Positions 1,763-32,563 of a stretch of 64,000 nucleotides of DNA are shown one piece after another. Each line of letters opens with the position of its first letter. Position 1 is the first letter of the stretch. The position numbers and the translations under genes are program-made. The notes under the pieces were generated by a model. It did no database searches, was not told where the DNA came from, and saw only the letters and a list, made by a program, of their open reading frames with translations. Source of the stretch: Thermoanaerobacterium sp. RBIITD (GTDB lineage Bacteria > Bacillota > Thermoanaerobacteria > Thermoanaerobacterales > Thermoanaerobacteraceae); assembly GCF_900205865.1 (NCBI RefSeq), contig NZ_LT906662.1, positions 1,364,001 through 1,428,000 on the forward strand, read 5' to 3'.

Positions 1763-3433
1763 TTATTTTACGAACATGAGCATGTTTGTATTTGAATCAT
1801 ATTTATAGCTGAAACCAAATAATGTCTTTAAATCATCTGCTGATATCCATGTTAAACCTTTATCTAATACTATTTGATCTGATATTGTCAAATCTTTGCC
1901 ATTTAATTTTGCAGCAGTGCTATTTATAGCAATGTCTGCTTTTATTTTCCCATATGTTAGATTTATTGTACCATTGTCGTTCCAGTCTACATTGCTGCCA
2001 AGGTATTGCATAAATGCTCTTGCAGGTACATACCATTTGCCATTTATCTGTTTTGGATTTGCTGGTATAATCGGCTGTTGAAGCATATTGCCATATATAG
2101 TCAGCATAGTTGCATTGAATTTTGTTGGTACAATTGTTTTTGGTGAATCTGTCTCTGTTCCATCAGAGTTCTTTGTTATTGAATATGTGTCAATAAGTGT
2201 TCCATCCTGTTTTACAGCCTTTATTGTAAGTGTATTCCCATTGACATCTGCAACAATGTAGTTTGGCTGATCTTGCGGGTCATAGAAGAAAGCATCCCAT
2301 ACTTTCTGTGAAAGGTCTGGATAGTATTTATTACCGCTTCTTCCTGTAACTACATACACTGTTCCTTTTGCAGGACTATTTACATATTGATCATTATTAA
2401 TTGGATATGTCCTTGAGTAACCGTGGTCATGTCCATTGAAAACTATGTCAACATGATATTTGTCAAATATAGGTTGGAATGCTGCTTTTATCTGTTCATT
2501 TGATCTTGTCGCTTTATTGTAATATGGTGTCTTGTGGAAGAAAACTATTTTCCATGTCTTATTTGTGCTACTTAAATCTTTATCAAGCCATACTTTCTGT
2601 GCTTCTAATATATCACCTGCAACAGGCTCTTCCTCATCTTCTTGGCTGTCAAGCATTACTATATGTGCATTGCCATAGTCAAATGAATATGTCTGACCTT
2701 TTAAACTATCAGGCCCATTTTGTGGTACTACAAATTGATTCACAAAATCTTTTGGTTTAGCTGAATCATAATTTTTCGATTGATATGTCTCGTGATTACC
2801 TTGCACTGGCATTTCTGGTATTGTGTCAATTACACCTTTTGCTGCATCAAACCAATTGTTCCAATGTGCGTACATCTGTCCAATTTCAACTAGGTCCCCA
2901 ACATTAACAAAGAATTTTGCATCTGGATTTGCTTTAAATGAATTTTGGATTGTTGTTTTCCATGGACCGTATTGCGGATCTGTTGCAACTCCGCTCTGGC
3001 TATCACCAAATATTAAAAACTTAAATGAATTTGTATCTTTTGCTTCCGTTGTGAAAGTATGTATATCACTCCAGTTTGTACCATCTCCGACTTTGTAATA
3101 ATATTTTGTTCCAGGTTCTAATTCTGTTAAAGTTACTGAGTGAATATTCATATCGCCGAGGTCTGATGTGAATTTTCGTGCTTTTTCATCAACTGTCTTT
3201 GCATCTTTTAATGCTGAATCTTTTCCATACTGAACCTTTCCTGAATTAACTGTTGTATCAGTTCTCCATGTAATTGTTTGTGTTGTCATAGGGTCCTGTG
3301 TCCATGTAAGTGTAATATGGTCCGGCATAACTTTCGCACCTGGAGTATTTGTATCAGCAAATATAGCCGTAGGTGCTGCAAAAATAGATACTGCCATAAC
3401 TAATGCAACTAATAACGATAAAAACTTCTTCAT
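1763..3433 (-). CDS. Secreted purple-acid-phosphatase-like metallophosphoesterase
   Basis: About 556 residues with a clear signal peptide (KKFLSLLVALVMAVSIFAAP). An Ig/fibronectin-like N-terminal domain as in purple acid phosphatases is followed by a calcineurin-type core: GDSQSG near residue 143, GDLVE near 178, GNHE near 211 and GHDHGYSRT near 333, which together supply the bimetal ligands. The last roughly 110 residues resemble a copper-amine-oxidase-like N-terminal domain, often used as a cell-surface module in Clostridia. The ATG at 3433 is preferred because GAGGTG lies 8 nt upstream; an in-frame TTG at 3439 sits too close to that site. A candidate Pho box lies upstream, which fits release of phosphate from extracellular esters. 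A broken second copy lies at 10822-11507. Confidence 0.9.
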   Translation of the reverse strand: MKKFLSLLVALVMAVSIFAAPTAIFADTNTPGAKVMPDHITLTWTQDPMTTQTITWRTDTTVNSGKVQYGKDSALKDAKTVDEKARKFTSDLGDMNIHSVTLTELEPGTKYYYKVGDGTNWSDIHTFTTEAKDTNSFKFLIFGDSQSGVATDPQYGPWKTTIQNSFKANPDAKFFVNVGDLVEIGQMYAHWNNWFDAAKGVIDTIPEMPVQGNHETYQSKNYDSAKPKDFVNQFVVPQNGPDSLKGQTYSFDYGNAHIVMLDSQEDEEEPVAGDILEAQKVWLDKDLSSTNKTWKIVFFHKTPYYNKATRSNEQIKAAFQPIFDKYHVDIVFNGHDHGYSRTYPINNDQYVNSPAKGTVYVVTGRSGNKYYPDLSQKVWDAFFYDPQDQPNYIVADVNGNTLTIKAVKQDGTLIDTYSITKNSDGTETDSPKTIVPTKFNATMLTIYGNMLQQPIIPANPKQINGKWYVPARAFMQYLGSNVDWNDNGTINLTYGKIKADIAINSTAAKLNGKDLTISDQIVLDKGLTWISADDLKTLFGFSYKYDSNTNMLMFVK

Positions 3434-3458
3434 AATCAAAACACCTCTTTTGAATTTT

Positions 3459-3474
3459 TATGTACAAGTACATA
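3459..3474. promoter_or_regulatory. Palindrome upstream of phosphatase gene
   Basis: TATGTAC and GTACATA form perfect 7-bp arms around 2 nt, between the candidate Pho box and the phosphatase start codon. It could be an operator or an mRNA leader hairpin; the sequence does not say which. Confidence 0.4.
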
Positions 3475-3486
3475 ATAATACTTTCT

Positions 3487-3545
3487 TGTTAAATCAATGT
3501 TACGAAGATGTAAAAATTGTTAAAAGCATGTTATGTAATTGTTAA
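3487..3545 (-). promoter_or_regulatory. Candidate Pho box: two triads of TTAACA-like hexamers
   Basis: Read on the minus strand there are six TT(A/T)ACA-like hexamers. On the plus strand they are TGTTAA 3487, TGTTAC 3498, TGTAAA 3509, TGTTAA 3518, TGTTAT 3529 and TGTTAA 3540. Within each triad the starts are exactly 11 bp apart, the helical spacing of PhoP dimer repeats in Bacillus; the two triads are offset by 9 bp. A TATTAT -10-like element follows at 3475-3480, so the box would take the place of a -35. It lies directly upstream of a phosphatase gene. Confidence 0.7.
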
Positions 3546-25653: not shown

Positions 25654-25989
25654 TCACCTCCTTATAAAATTTTCTAAATATTCTTTAAGCACATCCTCTA
25701 TAAAGCCGGGATTCACATATGCTTTTATGCCTTTTTCTTTAAGCCTCATTATAGCAGAGCTTCCTATTCTACATACAGCAACTGCTTCACAGTCCTTGAT
25801 TTTATCTATTACTGTGTTCATCCTGTCATTAACATCATCACTACCGCAAGCATTTATACATTCTCTCACATCACTTACAAAATAACTTCCCTCATCGCTT
25901 AAGTCAACAATGATAAATCTCTTTGCATGGCCAAAATGCTCATTGACCATCTTGCCATCCGATGTCGCAATAGCAATTCTGTGTATCAT
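25654..25989 (-). CDS. NifX/NifB-C-type FeMo-cofactor-binding domain protein
   Basis: 111 residues with the dinitrogenase iron-molybdenum cofactor biosynthesis fold: IAIATSDGKMVNEHFGHAKR at the start and AVAVCRIGSSAIMRLKEKGI later. In many organisms this domain is fused to the C-terminus of NifB; here it is a separate gene overlapping nifB by 4 bp. It probably carries NifB-cofactor or iron-sulfur fragments. Confidence 0.87.
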   Translation of the reverse strand: MIHRIAIATSDGKMVNEHFGHAKRFIIVDLSDEGSYFVSDVRECINACGSDDVNDRMNTVIDKIKDCEAVAVCRIGSSAIMRLKEKGIKAYVNPGFIEDVLKEYLENFIRR

Positions 25990-26807
25990 ATGTCCTCACC
26001 TAAAAGTCCAACTGCATCTGCTCTACACTGTCTGCAATGGTACATTTGATTTACAATTTTTGAGTTTTCCATCCTCACTTTTTCCAGTTCCTTGCACTCA
26101 GGTACTTTTATATGTGAAAGCTCCGCCTGTGAAATAAGCGGCATTATATTCATGATGTCTATTCCAAGTTCTTTTACTTTTTGGGCTATTTCTTTTATAT
26201 GTCCATCATTTATACCTGGTATTAAGACAGTATTAATCTTAACAAGTATACCATTATCACAAGCAGCTTCTATTCCCTCTAACTGTTTTTCTATAAGCAA
26301 TTTTGCTGCATCTATTCCTTTGTACACAATATTTTTATATACTGCATAATCATATATTTCTTTACCTATATATGGATCTATAGCATTTATCGTTACTGTA
26401 AGTGTACTGATGCCACAATCTATAAGAAGAGGTAATTTATCACTTAAAAGTAGCCCATTTGTACTTAAGCATTTAATCATATCTTTAAATTCAAGGGAAA
26501 TTAATTTAAAAGTCATAAATGTCTCCTCATTGTAAAGCGGATCACCGGGACCTGCTATTCCTACAACAGAAATGCAAGACTCTTTTTCTAATATATCTTT
26601 CGTATAGCATAATGCTTCATATGGATTCATTACCTTAGTTGTTACGCCGGGTCTATTTTCATTTATACAGCCTGTCTTTCTATCACAGTATTTGCATTTT
26701 ATATTGCACTTAGGTGCTACAGGTAGATGTATTCTGCCGTGATATTTAGTCACATCAGGATTAAAACACGGATGTCCGAAATCTACAATATTAAATTCTT
26801 TATTCAT
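25986..26807 (-). CDS. nifB: NifB: radical SAM FeMo-cofactor core synthase
   Basis: 273 residues. HPCFN near the N-terminus, the radical-SAM cluster motif CNIKCKYC near residue 34, IAGPGDPL, VLIPGINDGH and the C-terminal CRQCRADAVGLLGED are all NifB marks. NifB fuses two 4Fe-4S clusters with a SAM-derived carbide to make NifB-co. It is the core version lacking the NifX domain, which is the next gene. The frame is intact, in contrast to the wrecked structural nif genes on the other side of the divergent promoter region. Confidence 0.93.
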   Translation of the reverse strand: MNKEFNIVDFGHPCFNPDVTKYHGRIHLPVAPKCNIKCKYCDRKTGCINENRPGVTTKVMNPYEALCYTKDILEKESCISVVGIAGPGDPLYNEETFMTFKLISLEFKDMIKCLSTNGLLLSDKLPLLIDCGISTLTVTINAIDPYIGKEIYDYAVYKNIVYKGIDAAKLLIEKQLEGIEAACDNGILVKINTVLIPGINDGHIKEIAQKVKELGIDIMNIMPLISQAELSHIKVPECKELEKVRMENSKIVNQMYHCRQCRADAVGLLGEDI

Positions 26808-26824
26808 TCTCGTCCTCTCCTTTT

Positions 26825-26903
26825 AAAAAATTAAAGGCCTTTAATCAAATGATTAAAGACCTCAATGCCTTTAAAAAAAGTCCTTAACCATGCGGTTAAA
26901 GAC
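26825..26903 (-). promoter_or_regulatory. nifB leader with two tandem terminator-like hairpins
   Basis: In the nifB leader RNA, hairpin 1 (26880-26903) pairs GTCTTTAACC with GGTTAAGGAC and is followed by seven U. Hairpin 2 (26836-26861) pairs GGTCTTTAATC with GATTAAAGGCC and is followed by a U-rich tail. The two units are imperfect tandem copies, each introduced by AAAGGC. They lie between a consensus promoter and the nifB ribosome binding site, so they could act as attenuators. No trans-factor is identifiable. Confidence 0.65.
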
Positions 26904-26938
26904 TTCTTCGCCTTTTTATTATGAAAATTATTGAAAAT

Positions 26939-26967
26939 ATATTATCATAATAGATTTTCAATGTCAA
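26939..26967 (-). promoter_or_regulatory. Promoter of nifB operon
   Basis: Minus strand: perfect TTGACA, 17-bp spacer, TAATAT. It implies a leader of about 125 nt before the nifB ATG. Confidence 0.85.
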
Positions 26968-27118
26968 TACTTTATTTTTTGTGCTTTTCTAATAAGGAAA
27001 AGAACTTTTTTGTTTTGACAATGAAATCATGGATTAACCATAACATAGCTTTATTTTTTAAGGAGGTGATACCTTTTGTCACTATCATAATTAATTTTTT
27101 TTATTAATTAAATATTAA

Positions 27119-27629
<511 letters not shown>

Positions 27630-27649
27630 TTGAAAGGAGGCTTATATAT

Positions 27650-28150
27650 TAAATATTTAAACCAAAAGTTGTAGGCATATATGCTACATGTCCTGTCTAC
27701 CTTATTGGTGATGACATTAAAGCTGTCGCAAAAAAAAGCTGAAGAAGAACTCGGGATAAAAGTCATAACTGTAAGCTGTGAAGGTTATTCTTTGACGACT
27801 CAATGATATACCAATACTGAAAAAATTATTAAAGAAGAGATGGAAAAAGATAAAACCTAAGCTTGATTATTACAGAGAAAGACTTAAAAGAAAAAGAGCA
27901 ATACTTTTTGTACGCGGTTTCTCGCGCACACCATTATAATAAATATCTACTAAAAGATCTTGAAATGGAGGCAATTATTGCCAGTTATGAGTTCGCACAC
28001 CGTGACGATTATGAAGGGCATAAAATAATACCTGAGATAAAAGAAGCACCACATCATAAGATACTCGACACATATCACTTTGAAAGGGTAATAGAAAAGA
28101 TGTCAAAGTTTTTACAGCCAGCACATCGAGTTAAATCGGTTCACATGTGA
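27650..28150 (+). pseudogene. nifD: nifD remnant (nitrogenase alpha chain)
   Basis: Pieces in shifting frames: VVGIYATCPVYLIGDDIKAV with the P-cluster-type Cys, then EEELGIKVITVSCEGY. After a large deletion come LDYYRERLKRKRAILFV and YEFAHRDDYEG. The order matches NifD, but the central part, with most cofactor ligands, is gone and at least three frameshifts are needed. GGAGG lies upstream, but the spaced codon is ATT rather than ATG. Confidence 0.85.
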
Positions 28151-28475
28151 CAGTTTTTTCTAATATGGTAAAATCTGCTATAGATACATTTGCCAAAAAA
28201 AGCTCACCGAATGGAAAAACAAACATTATTCCGGGGTTTATGATCCCCGGTGATTTGCGCGAAATCAAAAGAATATTGAAGCTAATGGGAATAGGTGCAA
28301 TCATTCTTCCAGATATCTCTGATGTGCTTGATGCACCGATGACAGGTGAGATACACCTCTATCAGAAGGGCGGAACGACCATATCTTTGAAATAGAAGAT
28401 ATGGGTAATTCAATAGAAGCACTTGTCCTTGGAAGAGAAGCAGGAATTGGTCCTGCCGAATTATGTATTCAGCTA
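28147..28475 (+). pseudogene. nifK: nifK remnant, central part (nitrogenase beta chain)
   Basis: The frame reads FSNMVKSAIDTFAKKSS, NIIPGFMIPGDLREIKRIL and DVLDAPMTGEIHLYQKGGTT. After a shift comes EIEDMGNSIEALVLGREAG. This is the middle of NifK. The N- and C-terminal thirds are not contiguous with it; a C-terminal piece survives at 29061-29352. Confidence 0.85.
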
Positions 28476-28623
28476 TATTAACAAATCAGACCTTAATTAC
28501 CTTCAATACAGCAAAATCGAATATGACGACAAGTACAATAGATTTTTTATAAGTGTGCCACACAATCTTAATGCACTTCGCTCAAGCTGTTCGAAATATA
28601 ACGATTGTAATTATATTAATTGA
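28476..28623 (+). other. Unassigned open frame inside the nif remnant cluster
   Basis: About 48 codons reading SYINKSDLNYLQYSKIEYDD, then RFFISVPHNLNALRSSCSKY, ending in TGA. It does not fit NifD/K/H or the PII proteins as I know them. It may be the tail of another broken nif-associated gene. Confidence 0.4.
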
Positions 28624-28958
28624 AAGGGAATAAACAATATCTGAAGGTAATACGTGTTATAATAATGCCCGAAAAAGAAAGGCAAGTTGTTGAAGTTCTT
28701 GATAAAAACGGGTACAGCTCAATGACAAAAATGCACATATTTGGCAGTGGAAAACAAAAGGGATTACAAGTAGGACCTATTGTCTATGATGAACTACCTA
28801 AAATCATGCTTATGCTAGTCGTAAAAGATAATGATGCATCAAAAGTAGTAGAATTAATAGAAAATAATGCTCGTACAGGAAACATAGGTGATGGCAAAAT
28901 ATTCATAAGTGAAGTCGATGAAGCATACACGATTAGAACTGGTAATAAAGAATTATGA
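28620..28958 (+). CDS. nifI1: NifI1: PII-type nitrogenase regulator, start codon probably lost
   Basis: The frame is open along the full length of a NifI1 (about 105 residues): KVIRVIIMPEKERQVVEVL, KQKGLQVGPIVYDELPK, TGNIGDGKIFISEVDEAYTI. NifI1/NifI2 bind 2-oxoglutarate and ATP and switch off nitrogenase post-translationally. The codon where Met is expected (28641) is CTG, and AAAGGG lies just upstream at a normal distance from it. The TTG at 28620 overlaps that ribosome binding site and adds seven foreign residues. So the protein may be made weakly or not at all. It is the least damaged gene of the cluster. Confidence 0.8.
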   Translation: MKGNKQYLKVIRVIIMPEKERQVVEVLDKNGYSSMTKMHIFGSGKQKGLQVGPIVYDELPKIMLMLVVKDNDASKVVELIENNARTGNIGDGKIFISEVDEAYTIRTGNKEL

Positions 28959-28970
28959 GGAGGGTTATTT

Positions 28971-29060
28971 ATGAAAGAGATTGTAGCAATCATCAGGAGG
29001 CAGAAACTTCATGAAACAAAGACAGCCCTCGATGGACTTGGTTTTTCACATTGCCTGTAA
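28971..29060 (+). pseudogene. nifI2: nifI2 remnant (N-terminal 29 residues)
   Basis: An ATG behind AGGAGGG opens MKEIVAIIRRQKLHETKTAL, the typical NifI2 start, and stops after 29 codons. Full NifI2 is about 120 residues; the T-loop and nucleotide-binding parts are absent. Confidence 0.75.
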
Positions 29061-29352
29061 TTACCTCTTAGAACATTACAATTTTTAGCTGAAACTGATT
29101 TTAGCGAAATATTAAAAATATCAAAAGAAAGGAAGTTCCATCTGATGGAAAATACCTTACCGAAAAAGGCGATATACCACTTATACGCATAGGATTCCCT
29201 ATACTCGATAGAGTCTGTGGCCAGAGAATCTCCTATCTGTAGATTACACTGGAACTTTAAATTTACTTGATAGAATTACAAATACGCTACTAGAAAATAA
29301 ATATAAGACATATAGGAAAGATATGTATGAAAAATATTATAACGCCATATAA
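29061..29352 (+). pseudogene. nifK/nifN-type C-terminal remnant
   Basis: Frames with shifts read VPSDGKYLTEKGDIPLIRIG, FPILDRVCGQRISYL and, after a stop, DYTGTLNLLDRITNTLLENK. This is the C-terminal part of NifK or the related NifN. It lies after nifI1/nifI2 although the central nifK piece lies before them, so the cluster was rearranged as well as eroded. Confidence 0.7.
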
Positions 29353-29367
29353 AAAAGCAATTCAAAT

Positions 29368-29390
29368 AAAGGGGCAATATTTGCCCCTTT
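29368..29390. terminator. Bidirectional hairpin terminator
   Basis: AAAGGGGCAA pairs with TTGCCCCTTT around a 3-nt loop, between the convergent nif remnants and the Met-rich small gene. U-tracts are short on both sides. Confidence 0.6.
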
Positions 29391-29408: not shown

Positions 29409-29630
29409 TCACATCATTCTTGTCCCATGTGGCCCATAGTACATATATTCTACAAATTCCTCCAGCATGTGCTCTAAAGATTGCATAGCATAATATTTGA
29501 AAAATGGGTCTTTCATTGCCATATGAACTACCATGAAAGGATCCATACCATAACCATGCATCATACCTGCACCATACATATGCATAGGTTTTGCATATGG
29601 ATACATTCCATCCATCCATCTATAATCCAT
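29409..29630 (-). CDS. Small Met/His/Tyr-rich protein, third gene of the M-box operon
   Basis: 73 residues starting MDYRWMDGMYPYAKPMHMYG and ending YYGPHGTRMM, with about 14 Met, 4 His and many Tyr. There is no membrane helix and no family that I recognise. GGAGG lies 8 nt before the ATG. It follows the Nramp-like gene by 61 bp on the same strand and precedes a terminator, so it is probably expressed from the same Mg2+-riboswitch-controlled transcript. A metal-binding role is suggested by composition and context only. Confidence 0.65.
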   Translation of the reverse strand: MDYRWMDGMYPYAKPMHMYGAGMMHGYGMDPFMVVHMAMKDPFFKYYAMQSLEHMLEEFVEYMYYGPHGTRMM

Positions 29631-29691
29631 CACATATACCTCCATATATTTTTTTATTACAATAATAATATATGAAGATATATATAATTTG

Positions 29692-30924
29692 CTACCAAAT
29701 TGACGTAATAACAAGCATAATATTTAATATTATTAAGATAATTATTGTTATCCATGATACAAAATTTAATATTTTTTTATTAGCATAATTACCCATAATT
29801 CTTTTATTGCTTGCTAAAAGTATTACAAATATCAATGTTATAGGCAATAGCACACCTTGTACTACTTGTGTCATCAATATTATACTTATAAGGTTTATTC
29901 CAGGAATTAAAATTGTTATTGACCCTATCAGTATAAGCGCAGTATATAAAGTATAAAAAACAGGGGCATCTTTAAACTTATGATCAAGACCGCTTTCCCA
30001 TCCAAATGCTTCACATATTGCATATGATGTAGTCAATGGCAAAACACCTGCAGCAAGTGCCGATGCTCCGAACAAACCTAAGCCAAACAAAATAAAAGCA
30101 TACTGCCCTGCTAGTGGCTTTAGGGCCAATGCTGCTTGTGCTGCAGTCGTGATTTTGATGCCTTTTGGGTTTAATATCGTTGCTGTCGATACGATTATAA
30201 AAAATTGCACAATAACGCCAAATATGGCACCAAAAACAACATCAAGCTTCTCATAATCATAATGTTTTATAGATATGCCTTTATCAACAATTGATGCCTG
30301 TAGATAAAATTGCATGTACGGTGATATTGTTGTACCGATCATAGCAATAAATGTCATAATAAATCCGCTGTTATACTCAATATAAGGTGTAATAGTTTGT
30401 GCCGTTACAATACCCCAATGAGGCTTTGCCATAAATGCAGATATTATATAACCAAAAAAGCCAAAAGAAAAAAATATAAACACTTTTTCAACTACACTAT
30501 ATGAACCCCTTGTAACCAAATACCATATGACAACCGCCATTATCGGTACTGATATATACTTGCTTATGCCAAACAGCTCCATTGCAGCAGCAATACCAGC
30601 AAATTCTGATATAGTAATACCTATATTAGTTATTAACAATGTCATCATAGCAAGAAATGTAAGCTTTATTCCAAATCTTTCTCTTATTAGGTCAGAAAGG
30701 CCCTTACCAGTGACAGCACCCATTCTAGCACACATTTCTTGTATTATTATTAAGCTTATTGTAATTAAAATAAGACCCCATATCATCCTATAACCATAGG
30801 ATGCTCCAACTGTTGCATATGTCGTAATACCACCAGCATCATTACCTGCATTTGCAGTAATGATGCCGGGACCCAATATAGCAAGAAACATAAATATATT
30901 TGAAAATCTATTTTTCTTCGTCAT
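29692..30924 (-). CDS. Nramp-family divalent metal transporter, atypical (possibly Mg2+)
   Basis: 410 residues with about 11 membrane helices. Helix 1 reads GPGIITANAGNDAGGITTYA, so the classical DPGN metal motif is NAGN. Helix 6 reads TTISPYMQFYLQ, where classical proteins have MPH. The loss of the helix-6 Met, which gives preference for transition metals, points to a different ion. It follows a soluble MgtE_N/CBS gene by 11 bp behind an M-box riboswitch, so Mg2+ uptake is the likely role (compare the Nramp-related magnesium transporters). GGGGGG sits before the ATG. Confidence 0.82.
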   Translation of the reverse strand: MTKKNRFSNIFMFLAILGPGIITANAGNDAGGITTYATVGASYGYRMIWGLILITISLIIIQEMCARMGAVTGKGLSDLIRERFGIKLTFLAMMTLLITNIGITISEFAGIAAAMELFGISKYISVPIMAVVIWYLVTRGSYSVVEKVFIFFSFGFFGYIISAFMAKPHWGIVTAQTITPYIEYNSGFIMTFIAMIGTTISPYMQFYLQASIVDKGISIKHYDYEKLDVVFGAIFGVIVQFFIIVSTATILNPKGIKITTAAQAALALKPLAGQYAFILFGLGLFGASALAAGVLPLTTSYAICEAFGWESGLDHKFKDAPVFYTLYTALILIGSITILIPGINLISIILMTQVVQGVLLPITLIFVILLASNKRIMGNYANKKILNFVSWITIIILIILNIMLVITSIW

Positions 30925-30935
30925 GCTATCCCCCC

Positions 30936-32195
30936 TTAGCTTACCTTTCTTAAATGCTTACGCCATCTCGGGAGGAATACCTCATCAACTATATCATTGA
31001 GTAGAGCCATTCCAATAATATGATATTCTTTGTCAACAACAGGCAACGCTAATAAATTATATTTTGAAATAAGCTCAATAAGGCTTTCGATGCTTTCATT
31101 ATCTCCAATTGATATTACATCATCTTCCATTACATCTTTCAATAATGCATCATCATGCAAAAATATAAATTTTCTTAATGAGATTATCCCCTTTAATATA
31201 TTATTATCATCAACAACATATAGATAATATGGTATATCTTCATTTTCATAATTGCTCTTTAAGTATTCTTTCGCTTCTATAACGGTCATCTTTTCATTTA
31301 ATGTTACATATTCCGATGTCATTATACTTCCTACAGACATGTCTTCATATTTCATTAGTTTTCTTATAGCATCTGCATCATCTTTCTTCATACCTGACAA
31401 TATACTTTCTGCGAATTCATCCTCAAGTTCTTCCAGTATATCTGCAGCCTCATCCGCATCCATTGTACTTAAAATTCTCGATGCCCTACCATTCATCATA
31501 TTCTCAAGCAAATTTACCTGTATATCTGGTTCTATTTCTTCTAACGCGTTTGCAGCCACTTCATCATCAAGGGCTTGAAAGACTTCTGCTCTTTCCTTTC
31601 CGTCAAGGTCTTCTATTATATCCGCTAAATCTGCAGGATGTAGATTGTATAATTTTTCATATGGTACAGATAATTTAAGTTTGTCAATGCCTTTATAGAG
31701 TGTCTCAATGCTGTCCCATGAAATCAAATATTCGGGAATATTGAATTTAAAAATCTTCTCAAAGCTATTTACTATACCCATTACGCCAAGTCTTCTTAAA
31801 ATACCCAAAACACCAACATCGACAGCCAACACGATAATATCGCCGTGTATATAAACGAGTTTTATATCATTTACTCTAACTACTTTTCTTCCATTGAGGT
31901 CTACAACTTGTTTATCCATTATATCTCTATCAAGATTTAGGTAGCTTTCTTCAATAAATGTCTCTATTACTCTTTTGCATTGAAGGATTATTCTCTCATT
32001 TTCTTCTTTTAACTCAATATTTTTTATATCAACTTTAATTGGTTTTTTCCTTGCCTTTATTTTTACTGCAAGTACTTTTGGATGACCCGCTTCAAGTGAT
32101 ACAACTAGGTCAACGATCTTCCCTATAGGCCTATTTCTAATGTCAACTAAATTATGACCCAATATATCGCTTAAATAAAATCTTGTTACATTCAT
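30936..32195 (-). CDS. Soluble PRC-barrel / MgtE_N / CBS-pair protein
   Basis: 419 residues and no membrane helix. PRC-barrel-like segments occupy about 1-150; an acidic MgtE N-domain superhelix (NLHPADLADIIEDLDGKERA to MKKDDADAIRKLMKYED) about 195-300; two CBS repeats (VGSIMTSEYVTL; LKDVMEDDVISIG) about 300-412. These are the Mg2+-sensing cytoplasmic parts of MgtE without its pore. It may gate or sense for the Nramp-like transporter encoded next. AAGGAGGAGG lies 5 nt before the ATG. Expression is behind the M-box riboswitch. Confidence 0.88.
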   Translation of the reverse strand: MNVTRFYLSDILGHNLVDIRNRPIGKIVDLVVSLEAGHPKVLAVKIKARKKPIKVDIKNIELKEENERIILQCKRVIETFIEESYLNLDRDIMDKQVVDLNGRKVVRVNDIKLVYIHGDIIVLAVDVGVLGILRRLGVMGIVNSFEKIFKFNIPEYLISWDSIETLYKGIDKLKLSVPYEKLYNLHPADLADIIEDLDGKERAEVFQALDDEVAANALEEIEPDIQVNLLENMMNGRASRILSTMDADEAADILEELEDEFAESILSGMKKDDADAIRKLMKYEDMSVGSIMTSEYVTLNEKMTVIEAKEYLKSNYENEDIPYYLYVVDDNNILKGIISLRKFIFLHDDALLKDVMEDDVISIGDNESIESLIELISKYNLLALPVVDKEYHIIGMALLNDIVDEVFLPRWRKHLRKVS

Positions 32196-32304
32196 TTAAA
32201 CCTCCTCCTTCAGGGGGAGGAGCCGGTTTAATGATAGACTCCTCTCCCATATTTTTTTGTTTAATTAAAAAAATTATTCGCTTATAATAAGGGCCAGAGT
32301 CCAT
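32152..32304 (-). CDS. Candidate leader ORF between M-box and MgtE_N gene
   Basis: An ATG at 32304 with AGGTGG 5 nt upstream opens 50 codons that run through the leader and overlap the start of the MgtE_N gene in another frame. It reads MDSGPYYKRIIFLIKQKNMG, then EESIIKPAPPPEGGG. The acidic, proline-rich stretch recalls the Mg2+-sensitive mgtL/mgtP-type leader peptides, but no homolog is known to me and chance is possible. The stem formed by AATGATGGACTC with GAGTCTATCATT starts at this ATG. Confidence 0.3.
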   Translation of the reverse strand: MDSGPYYKRIIFLIKQKNMGEESIIKPAPPPEGGGLNECNKILFKRYIGS

Positions 32305-32331
32305 CATTACCACCTGCCTTTAAAATATTAA

Positions 32332-32354
32332 AGCCTTTTACATATGTAAAAGGC
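32332..32354 (-). terminator. Terminator-like hairpin downstream of the M-box aptamer
   Basis: AGCCTTTTAC and GTAAAAGGCT pair around 3 nt, followed by TTAATATTTT on the minus strand. Probably the expression platform that stops transcription when Mg2+ is bound. Confidence 0.65.
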
Positions 32355-32364
32355 TCATTACTCA

Positions 32365-32513
32365 ACATACTCGTTGGGTTTTAGCACTATACGGCATAGG
32401 ATTTACCGGCTGCATTAGATTAAACCTTATTACGGTAGAATCTGTTGACCCATTGGCATCTCTCGATGTTTCCGGGCATCAGCATGTATCCGCATAGGAG
32501 CCTCACTTAACGA
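32365..32513 (-). promoter_or_regulatory. M-box (ykoK leader) Mg2+ riboswitch
   Basis: On the minus strand the hallmark blocks appear in order: GTTAAGTGAGGCTCCTATG, GATGCCCGGAAACATCG, GAGATGCCAATGGGTCAACA, ATAAGGTTTAATCTAATGCA and CCTATGCCGTATAGTGCTAA. They match the M-box aptamer that folds on Mg2+ and turns transporter genes off. It lies between a sigma-A promoter and the MgtE_N/Nramp operon. Confidence 0.95.
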
Positions 32514-32534
32514 TAATTATTTTTTTGTAAGTAA

Positions 32535-32563
32535 ATTATAACACATAATATTTCTTTATACAA
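32535..32563 (-). promoter_or_regulatory. Promoter of the M-box operon
   Basis: Minus strand: TTGTAT, 17-bp spacer, perfect TATAAT, about 20 bp upstream of the aptamer. Confidence 0.75.

Follow-up and report, generated by a model that had tools for sequence, protein, structure and literature searches.

A conserved leader open reading frame in the M-box-controlled NrmT operon of Thermoanaerobacterium and its possible role in Mg2+ sensing

The DNA analyzed here is a stretch of 64,000 nucleotides (nt) from Thermoanaerobacterium sp. RBIITD (contig NZ_LT906662.1, positions 1,364,001 to 1,428,000), referred to below as the window, and feature coordinates are positions in it. A single apparent transcription unit on its minus strand (32563–29368) contains an M-box Mg2+ riboswitch and genes for a soluble protein resembling the cytosolic domain of MgtE and for an Nramp-related transporter of the NrmT (NRMT) kind. 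This is very probably an Mg2+ importer operon, and the evidence leans, on balance, toward three layers of control: the M-box, a leader peptide, and the sensor protein. The leader peptide is encoded by a short upstream open reading frame (uORF) located between the riboswitch and the sensor gene, and ORFs of the same kind recur in M-box leaders of Bacillota. Most of the interpretation of the operon, which is a new member of a known system, has been published already; new here are a pattern in an Mg2+-binding residue pair of the sensor, which is lost in Acidobacteriaceae, and the conserved leader ORF. The leader peptide is the part worth following, and the residue pair is a second testable lead.

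Shin et al. (2014; PMC4072509) described M-box-controlled Nramp-related genes, which they named NrmT, and reported that two NrmT proteins rescue Mg2+ growth but fail to rescue Mn2+ uptake, and that NrmT of Acidobacterium capsulatum restores Mn2+ uptake and, weakly, Mg2+ growth. Most NrmT genes neighbor a gene resembling the MgtE cytosolic domain, for which cytoplasmic feedback was proposed; the idea of feedback between the CBS protein and NrmT thus dates from 2014. The Clostridium acetobutylicum operon (Ca_c0685) of that study shares with the window the M-box, the gene resembling the MgtE cytosolic domain, and the Nramp-related Mg2+ transporter. The sensor is split there, whereas it is one gene in the window, and the window has in addition a leader ORF and a Met-rich ORF, neither of which is mentioned in PMC4072509. 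Ramanadane et al. (2022; PMC8806188) solved the structure of EleNRMT (PDB 7QIA), defined the signature D-x-x-G / T-x-x-A/T, and showed that EleNRMT moves Mn2+ too in vitro. The literature searched, which left subscription papers mostly outside, yielded no description of ORFs in Bacillota M-box leaders, and priority is uncertain to that extent.

Results

A short ORF with a conserved N terminus in M-box leaders

The uORF of the window starts MDSGP and follows a Shine–Dalgarno (SD) sequence, AGGTGG, at 32310–32315. It is situated downstream of the M-box terminator and ahead of the sensor gene, whose start it overlaps in a different frame. An earlier reading of this DNA, made from the letters and translations alone (the sequence-only reading), had overlooked it. 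Inspection of leaders from related operons revealed, in the same place, an ORF behind an SD that opens with MDSGP or a comparable sequence. Among the 43 M-box/NrmT leaders of at least 120 nt, 36 carry an SD-preceded ORF of the form M[DE].{0,4}P, compared with 0.2 expected from shuffles.

To tell whether the ORF goes with the operon or with the M-box, M-boxes were taken from 299 genomes of the phylum, 60 more were fetched, and the downstream genes were classed. The same kind of ORF was found before corA (MDDPDADL, MDDPYPG), mgtE (MDPDPGS, MDADPDD, METDPGR), and a P-type ATPase gene (MDHPS), as well as before NrmT operons. Motif uORFs occur 35 to 140 nt past the aptamer in 61 of 139 distinct Bacillota M-box leaders, compared with 42 of 15,535 background zones from other parts of these sequences (0.27%), and they start with 33 different hexapeptides; M-box leaders shorter than 80 nt have no motif ORF. 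By a tally of loci, the uORF leaders span approximately 18 families, and the pattern recurs widely among sequences that are not independent of each other. A search of the leader downstream of the aptamer with Rfam at a relaxed threshold gave chance matches only, and the leader hairpin, sought as a repeated element, is present in the window as a single copy.

Conservation is concentrated at the N terminus. Asp or Glu occupies codon 2 in 76 of 106 SD-preceded short ORFs (background, 7.6%) and is almost as constant as Pro, and the first five codons of the uORF show synonymous variation at D, S, G, and P. Within one genus, codons 2 to 7 vary at third positions only and codons 11 to 20 at all positions, and the uORF of one species is out of frame past codon 7. 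Selection thus acts at the peptide level, on the first few residues. Motif uORFs were also found within 330 nt of ten sensor loci in which Rfam detected no M-box (L014, L026, L069, L070, L074, L078, L108, L112, L169, and L182; the ORF starts MDSSPYYQ in L014 and L026), which implies that the uORF can stand alone. Two of the ten belong to the same order as the window. Taken together, it is highly probable that the uORF is translated and functional.

Alternative pairing of the leader RNA

In many uORF-containing leaders, the strand that follows the uORF (R3) has two alternative pairing partners, the main gene's SD (R4) and an SD mimic in the 3' part of the uORF (R2). In the window, the computed energies are −14.0 kcal/mol for 3:4 and −16.4 kcal/mol for 2:3, with a joint score that was reached by 0 of 40 shuffles. 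The corresponding R2/R3/R4 strands are CAUGGAGGGAUG / CAUCCCUCCAUG / AUGGAGGGAUG in locus L077 and GGGGGGAUGU / ACAUCCCCCC / GGGGGGAUGU in locus L073. A joint score unmatched by 40 shuffles was obtained for 22 of 47 leaders with a uORF, compared with 3 of 59 without one; the score used is the version that admits anti-SD strands close to the SD, since excluding these misses several leaders. R2 is read in differing frames among species (VEGC-stop in L019, WRGAN in L023), which indicates that it acts as RNA.

The openness of the sensor SD in the window was calculated as 0.13 for the free leader, 0.71 when the uORF start (R1) was masked, and 0.15 when R2 was masked. It is somewhat more likely than not that the uORF controls the sensor SD. 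Four further M-box leaders (L260, L276, L243, and L250) show SD-mimic/anti-SD pairing or similar complementarity with no ATG-started motif ORF; these possibly hold a uORF whose start or motif is different.

The sensor keeps residues of MgtE Mg2+ sites

The sensor matches MgtE_N (E = 1.8e-28), CBS (3.5e-17), and PRC (6.8e-08) domains and has no membrane part. It shares with the cytosolic domain of MgtE (PDB 2YVY and 2ZY9; PMC5882242, PMC5529423) the N domain and the CBS pair (E = 4.6e-64), as well as the residues of the Mg4 and Mg6 sites, and differs in having N-terminal PRC domains and in lacking the pore and the plug-helix residues E258/D259, which face the pore in MgtE. Ending after CBS2 with no pore domain, it was not classed as MgtE. 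The view of the sequence-only reading, that the sensing half of MgtE is here separated from its pore and paired with an Nramp-fold transporter, agrees with these domain matches.

MgtE closes through Mg2+ sites Mg2 to Mg7 (PMC5882242), and its ATP site consists of Y170, R187, D188, and F227 (PMC5529423). An alignment places D248, D252, D401, and D404 of the window sensor at D91, D95, D247, and D250 of MgtE. When 93 sensors were aligned with Thermus MgtE, with Mg-site residues after PMC5882242, 92 had kept D95 (Mg6), and the E59 position (Mg7) was acidic in 85. The Mg4 pair, D91/D247, was D/D in 82 sensors, S/N in ten (one clade), and G/Q in one, never mixed; in 109 sensors from outside Acidobacteriaceae, it was D/D in 99 and S/N in ten. 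In Acidobacteriaceae, where 110 of 120 genomes have a sensor, the Mg4 pair and the ATP-site residues are lost in all 30 of the family's sensors that best match one member, and all 30 keep D95 and the acidic residue at the Glu59 position. Because these 30 are best matches to one member and represent one lineage, the link between site loss and the transported metal is a correlation from a single loss event. Acidobacteriaceae sensors (L188–L216, L179) often do not adjoin NrmT. The sensor ORF frame of a Coriobacteriales locus (L125:2997–4904) is 636 residues long, approximately 200 residues longer at the C-terminal end than those of the other sensors.

The transporter and its association with the sensor

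The transporter scores 431 bits against EleNRMT, its best solved relative, versus 99.8 bits at most against classical Nramps. Its ion site reads D29-A-G-G32 / T198-T-I-S201, and D29, G32, and T198 are kept in 104 of 104 relatives. The last position of the α6 motif is Ala in 59 of these, Thr in 39, Ser in five, and Cys in one. The window protein belongs to the EleNRMT clade and shares the D-x-x-G and Thr of its ion site, but has the uncommon Ser201 in place of the Ala/Thr of the signature. From its homologues, the importer is inferred to carry Mg2+.

A full sensor is present in 26 of 37 genomes of the class, and a close NrmT occurs in the same 26, always adjoining, with an M-box in 24; ten genomes of one sister genus in this survey lack both genes. 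In a sample of 398 genomes of the phylum, NrmT was found in 36 and a full sensor in 35 of these. Of 80 NrmT loci from named genomes of many phyla, two were cut at a contig end, and the sensor lies directly upstream of NrmT on the same strand in 70 of the 78 usable ones (median spacing, 28 nt). A Pelosinus locus has tandem M-boxes (L164:3001–3177 and 3319–3490) before one sensor–NrmT operon. This co-occurrence, an ion site of the Mg2+ type, and the Mg2+ complementation by two NrmT proteins (PMC4072509) support the proposal of the sequence-only reading that sensor and transporter form a pair for Mg2+ uptake. The part of that proposal in which the Nramp protein is a channel does not stand, NrmT being a transporter.

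Operon layout and neighboring genes

The features of the operon are collected in Table 1. One promoter and an Mg2+ riboswitch had been predicted to precede three same-strand genes, and this layout was recovered. The M-box scored 134.9 bits (E = 3.4e-30), above the gathering cutoff of 44 bits; the promoter-like sequence scored under the threshold of a consensus sigma-70 scan, in which the number of sites was no higher than in shuffles.

Table 1. Features of the NrmT operon in the window
Feature	Position	Strand	Evidence
Promoter-like sequence TTGTAT-N17-TATAAT, extended −10 (TGT)	32535..32563	−	Read directly from sequence
M-box (ykoK) Mg2+ riboswitch aptamer	32360..32521	−	Rfam RF00380
M-box expression platform, terminator-like hairpin of 11 base pairs with a T-rich tail	32331..32356	−	Hairpin scan and folds
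R1, uORF SD/start region, complementary to 32241–32230	32297..32314	−	Leader fold
Leader uORF, 50 codons, MDSGPYYKRIIFLIKQKNMGEESIIKPAPPPEGGGLNECNKILFKRYIGS	32152..32304	−	Read from sequence; N terminus conserved in M-box leaders
R2, SD mimic GGGAGAGGAG inside the uORF	32239..32248	−	Pairing computation
R3, anti-SD CUCCUCCCC, partner of either R2 or R4	32214..32222	−	Pairing computation
R4, SD GGAGGAGG of the sensor gene	32201..32208	−	Sequence and pairing
Soluble sensor PRC-MgtE_N-CBS-CBS, 419 residues	30936..32195	−	Domain matches
Nramp-related Mg2+ transporter (NrmT/NRMT), 410 residues	29692..30924	−	Domain and homologue matches
Met/His/Tyr-rich ORF, 73 residues, lineage-specific, outside the conserved system	29409..29630	−	Sequence and neighborhood survey
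Intrinsic-terminator-like hairpin closing the transcript	29368..29390	−	Hairpin scan

The third gene, 22% of whose residues are Met, was rejected as a member of the system: it follows NrmT in one of 26 class-level operons, that of this genome. Two genomes of another family have relatives with 44 to 49% identity, flanked by tatD and by a gene for a G5/3D-domain protein; no others were detected in 398 genomes of the phylum. These relatives (L009:1330–1671 and L010:1423–1854) have long Met-Pro-Gly tails and share the core DPFF.Y.AM...EH..EE; they match no Pfam family.

The host genome (3.4 Mb) encodes one CorA, two further canonical Nramps, and a decayed one with several stop codons (C1:572283–572715, loci L004 and L005); it has no further MgtE_N protein apart from a weak match in an ORF of 193 residues. 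Adjoining the operon, ORFs at 25986–29340, judged from translation without a search, read like NifB-type radical SAM, NifH, and PII/NifI fragments of an apparently decaying nitrogen-fixation cluster.

Discussion

A working model of the three layers can be outlined as follows. With ample Mg2+, the M-box, whose sequence is evident in the window, would stop transcription, as known for its family. In the transcripts that extend further, the start of the uORF pairs with its 3' half, and the anti-SD pairs with the SD mimic or with the sensor SD; the position of the ribosome on the uORF would decide translation of the sensor, and perhaps of a coupled importer too. At low Mg2+, the acidic/Pro N terminus might cause early ribosome drop-off or pausing, as in MgtL and MgtQ, and this would open the sensor SD, the sign of the effect being uncertain. 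Finally, the soluble PRC-MgtE_N-CBS protein may bind Mg2+ at an interface like that between the N and CBS domains of MgtE and, at high cytosolic Mg2+, restrain NrmT. The Met-rich ORF would be a bystander.

Several known leaders resemble the present ones. In MgtL of Escherichia coli, which opens with a destabilizing EPDP motif, ribosome drop-off occurs when Mg2+ is low (PMC11282234); MgtQ of Salmonella has Asp2, Pro4, and Glu5, and the mgtB SD is freed by 2:3 pairing (PMC8092293). Both share with the present leaders a short SD-led ORF with an acidic/Pro start in the leader or intergenic region of an Mg2+ transporter gene, and the competing 1:2/3:4 and 2:3 stems of MgtQ match the layout predicted here. 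The present leaders, in contrast, belong to a different phylum and lie downstream of an M-box, and the likeness claimed for them is one of working and not of sequence homology or descent; MgtL acts through Rho-dependent termination, unlike the switch proposed here. In Mycobacterium tuberculosis, the M-box uORF Rv1805A, reported as genus-specific (PMC12810186), is likewise a conserved small ORF behind an M-box with anti-SD/anti-anti-SD pairing, and has a conserved Pro at position 7. It differs in being described as restricted to mycobacteria, in that its peptide is regarded as the actual product, and in its translational M-box with Rho-dependent termination.

On these analogies, the uORF peptide may sense Mg2+, an assignment that we make tentatively. 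Several observations on the leader, and others on the sensor given below, count against the three-layer model. The uORF motif is missing from 78 of the 139 M-box leaders, and only one of the first five residues of the window peptide, MDSGP, is acidic, which makes this start weaker than the EPDP of MgtL. With cruder equilibrium masks, SD openness over 39 leaders was 0.32 for the free leader and 0.49 for both an early and a late ribosome, and the sign of the masking effect was not uniform. The window uORF runs through the sensor SD, so that a completing ribosome could also melt it. Because the sign varies, and because kinetic folding and the uORF overlap matter, the direction of the switch is proposed conditionally here. 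A rival account is that of an ordinary NrmT operon under M-box control, in which the uORF is translated to shield the transcript from Rho or to load ribosomes, with no Mg2+-specific role, or senses proline or tRNA-Pro, as proposed for mgtP and mgtL. The ambiguous masking test fits this account, as do the response of enteric Mg2+-gene leader ORFs to proline supply (PMC3641672) and the fact that roughly one uORF-containing leader in three lacks significant R2/R3/R4 pairing. We nonetheless regard it as rather unlikely, since most uORFs have just one or two Pro codons, the acidic residue at codon 2 is almost as invariant as Pro, and the uORF is tied to Mg2+ transporters of unrelated families, which points to Mg2+.

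That the sensor gates NrmT is plausible, and we lean slightly toward it. It could instead be an Mg2+ chaperone, a store, or a regulator of something else that shares the regulon. This would accord with the reports that NrmT alone complements in a heterologous host and that the co-expressed A. capsulatum partner gave no gain (PMC4072509), and with the Acidobacteriaceae sensors that lie away from NrmT. Likewise unfavorable to gating are four of the eight exceptions among the 78 NrmT loci (L109, L111, L160, and L174), which have an M-box directly before NrmT and no adjacent sensor; the lack, among the loci surveyed, of a single-ORF sensor–NrmT fusion, which was sought as proof of contact; and, in the window sensor itself, an Asn at the Mg7 position and a Lys at that of the ATP-site Asp188. 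Against a role apart from NrmT, the two genes of other lineages lie next to each other almost without exception and are closely spaced, the Mg4 and Mg6 residues are retained, and the A. capsulatum type is precisely the one that has lost the Mg4 and ATP-site residues; such a role is unlikely. The Mn2+ activities of EleNRMT and of A. capsulatum NrmT might be taken to suggest an Mn2+/Fe2+ importer, which is very improbable in view of the M-box control, the D29/G32/T198 site, the closeness to EleNRMT, and the two canonical Nramps encoded elsewhere in the genome. Hardly any weight can be given to the Met-rich protein as a third subunit or metallochaperone. Its gene lies on the same strand, has a good SD, starts 61 nt after NrmT, and ends before the hairpin terminator, and its product is rich in Met and His; however, no such gene follows NrmT in any of the class's other 25 operons, and its detectable relatives, in two genomes only, stand beside tatD. 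The small third member that the sequence-only reading had assigned to the uptake system was thus not confirmed.

For the sensor, the fact that Mg4 pair and ATP-site residues are lost together in a family whose NrmT acts as an Mn2+ transporter makes the question raised in 2014 about the "MgtE fragment" testable by mutation.

The M-box is a textbook transcriptional riboswitch. If the N-terminally conserved peptide holds across Bacillota M-box leaders, many of these leaders would be two-stage devices that have escaped notice because reporters were assayed at the transcript level (S1 mapping, PMC4072509) or truncated at the terminator. We tentatively suggest that, in Bacillota, M-box leaders often combine two successive Mg2+ sensors, an aptamer acting on transcription and an MgtL-like peptide and ribosome acting on translation, which would control genes for CorA, MgtE, P-type ATPases, and NrmT operons through an SD-mimic/anti-SD switch. 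If true, such two-sensor leaders would have converged on the solution seen in MgtL and MgtQ of enterobacteria and would represent a second origin of ribosome-based Mg2+ sensing.

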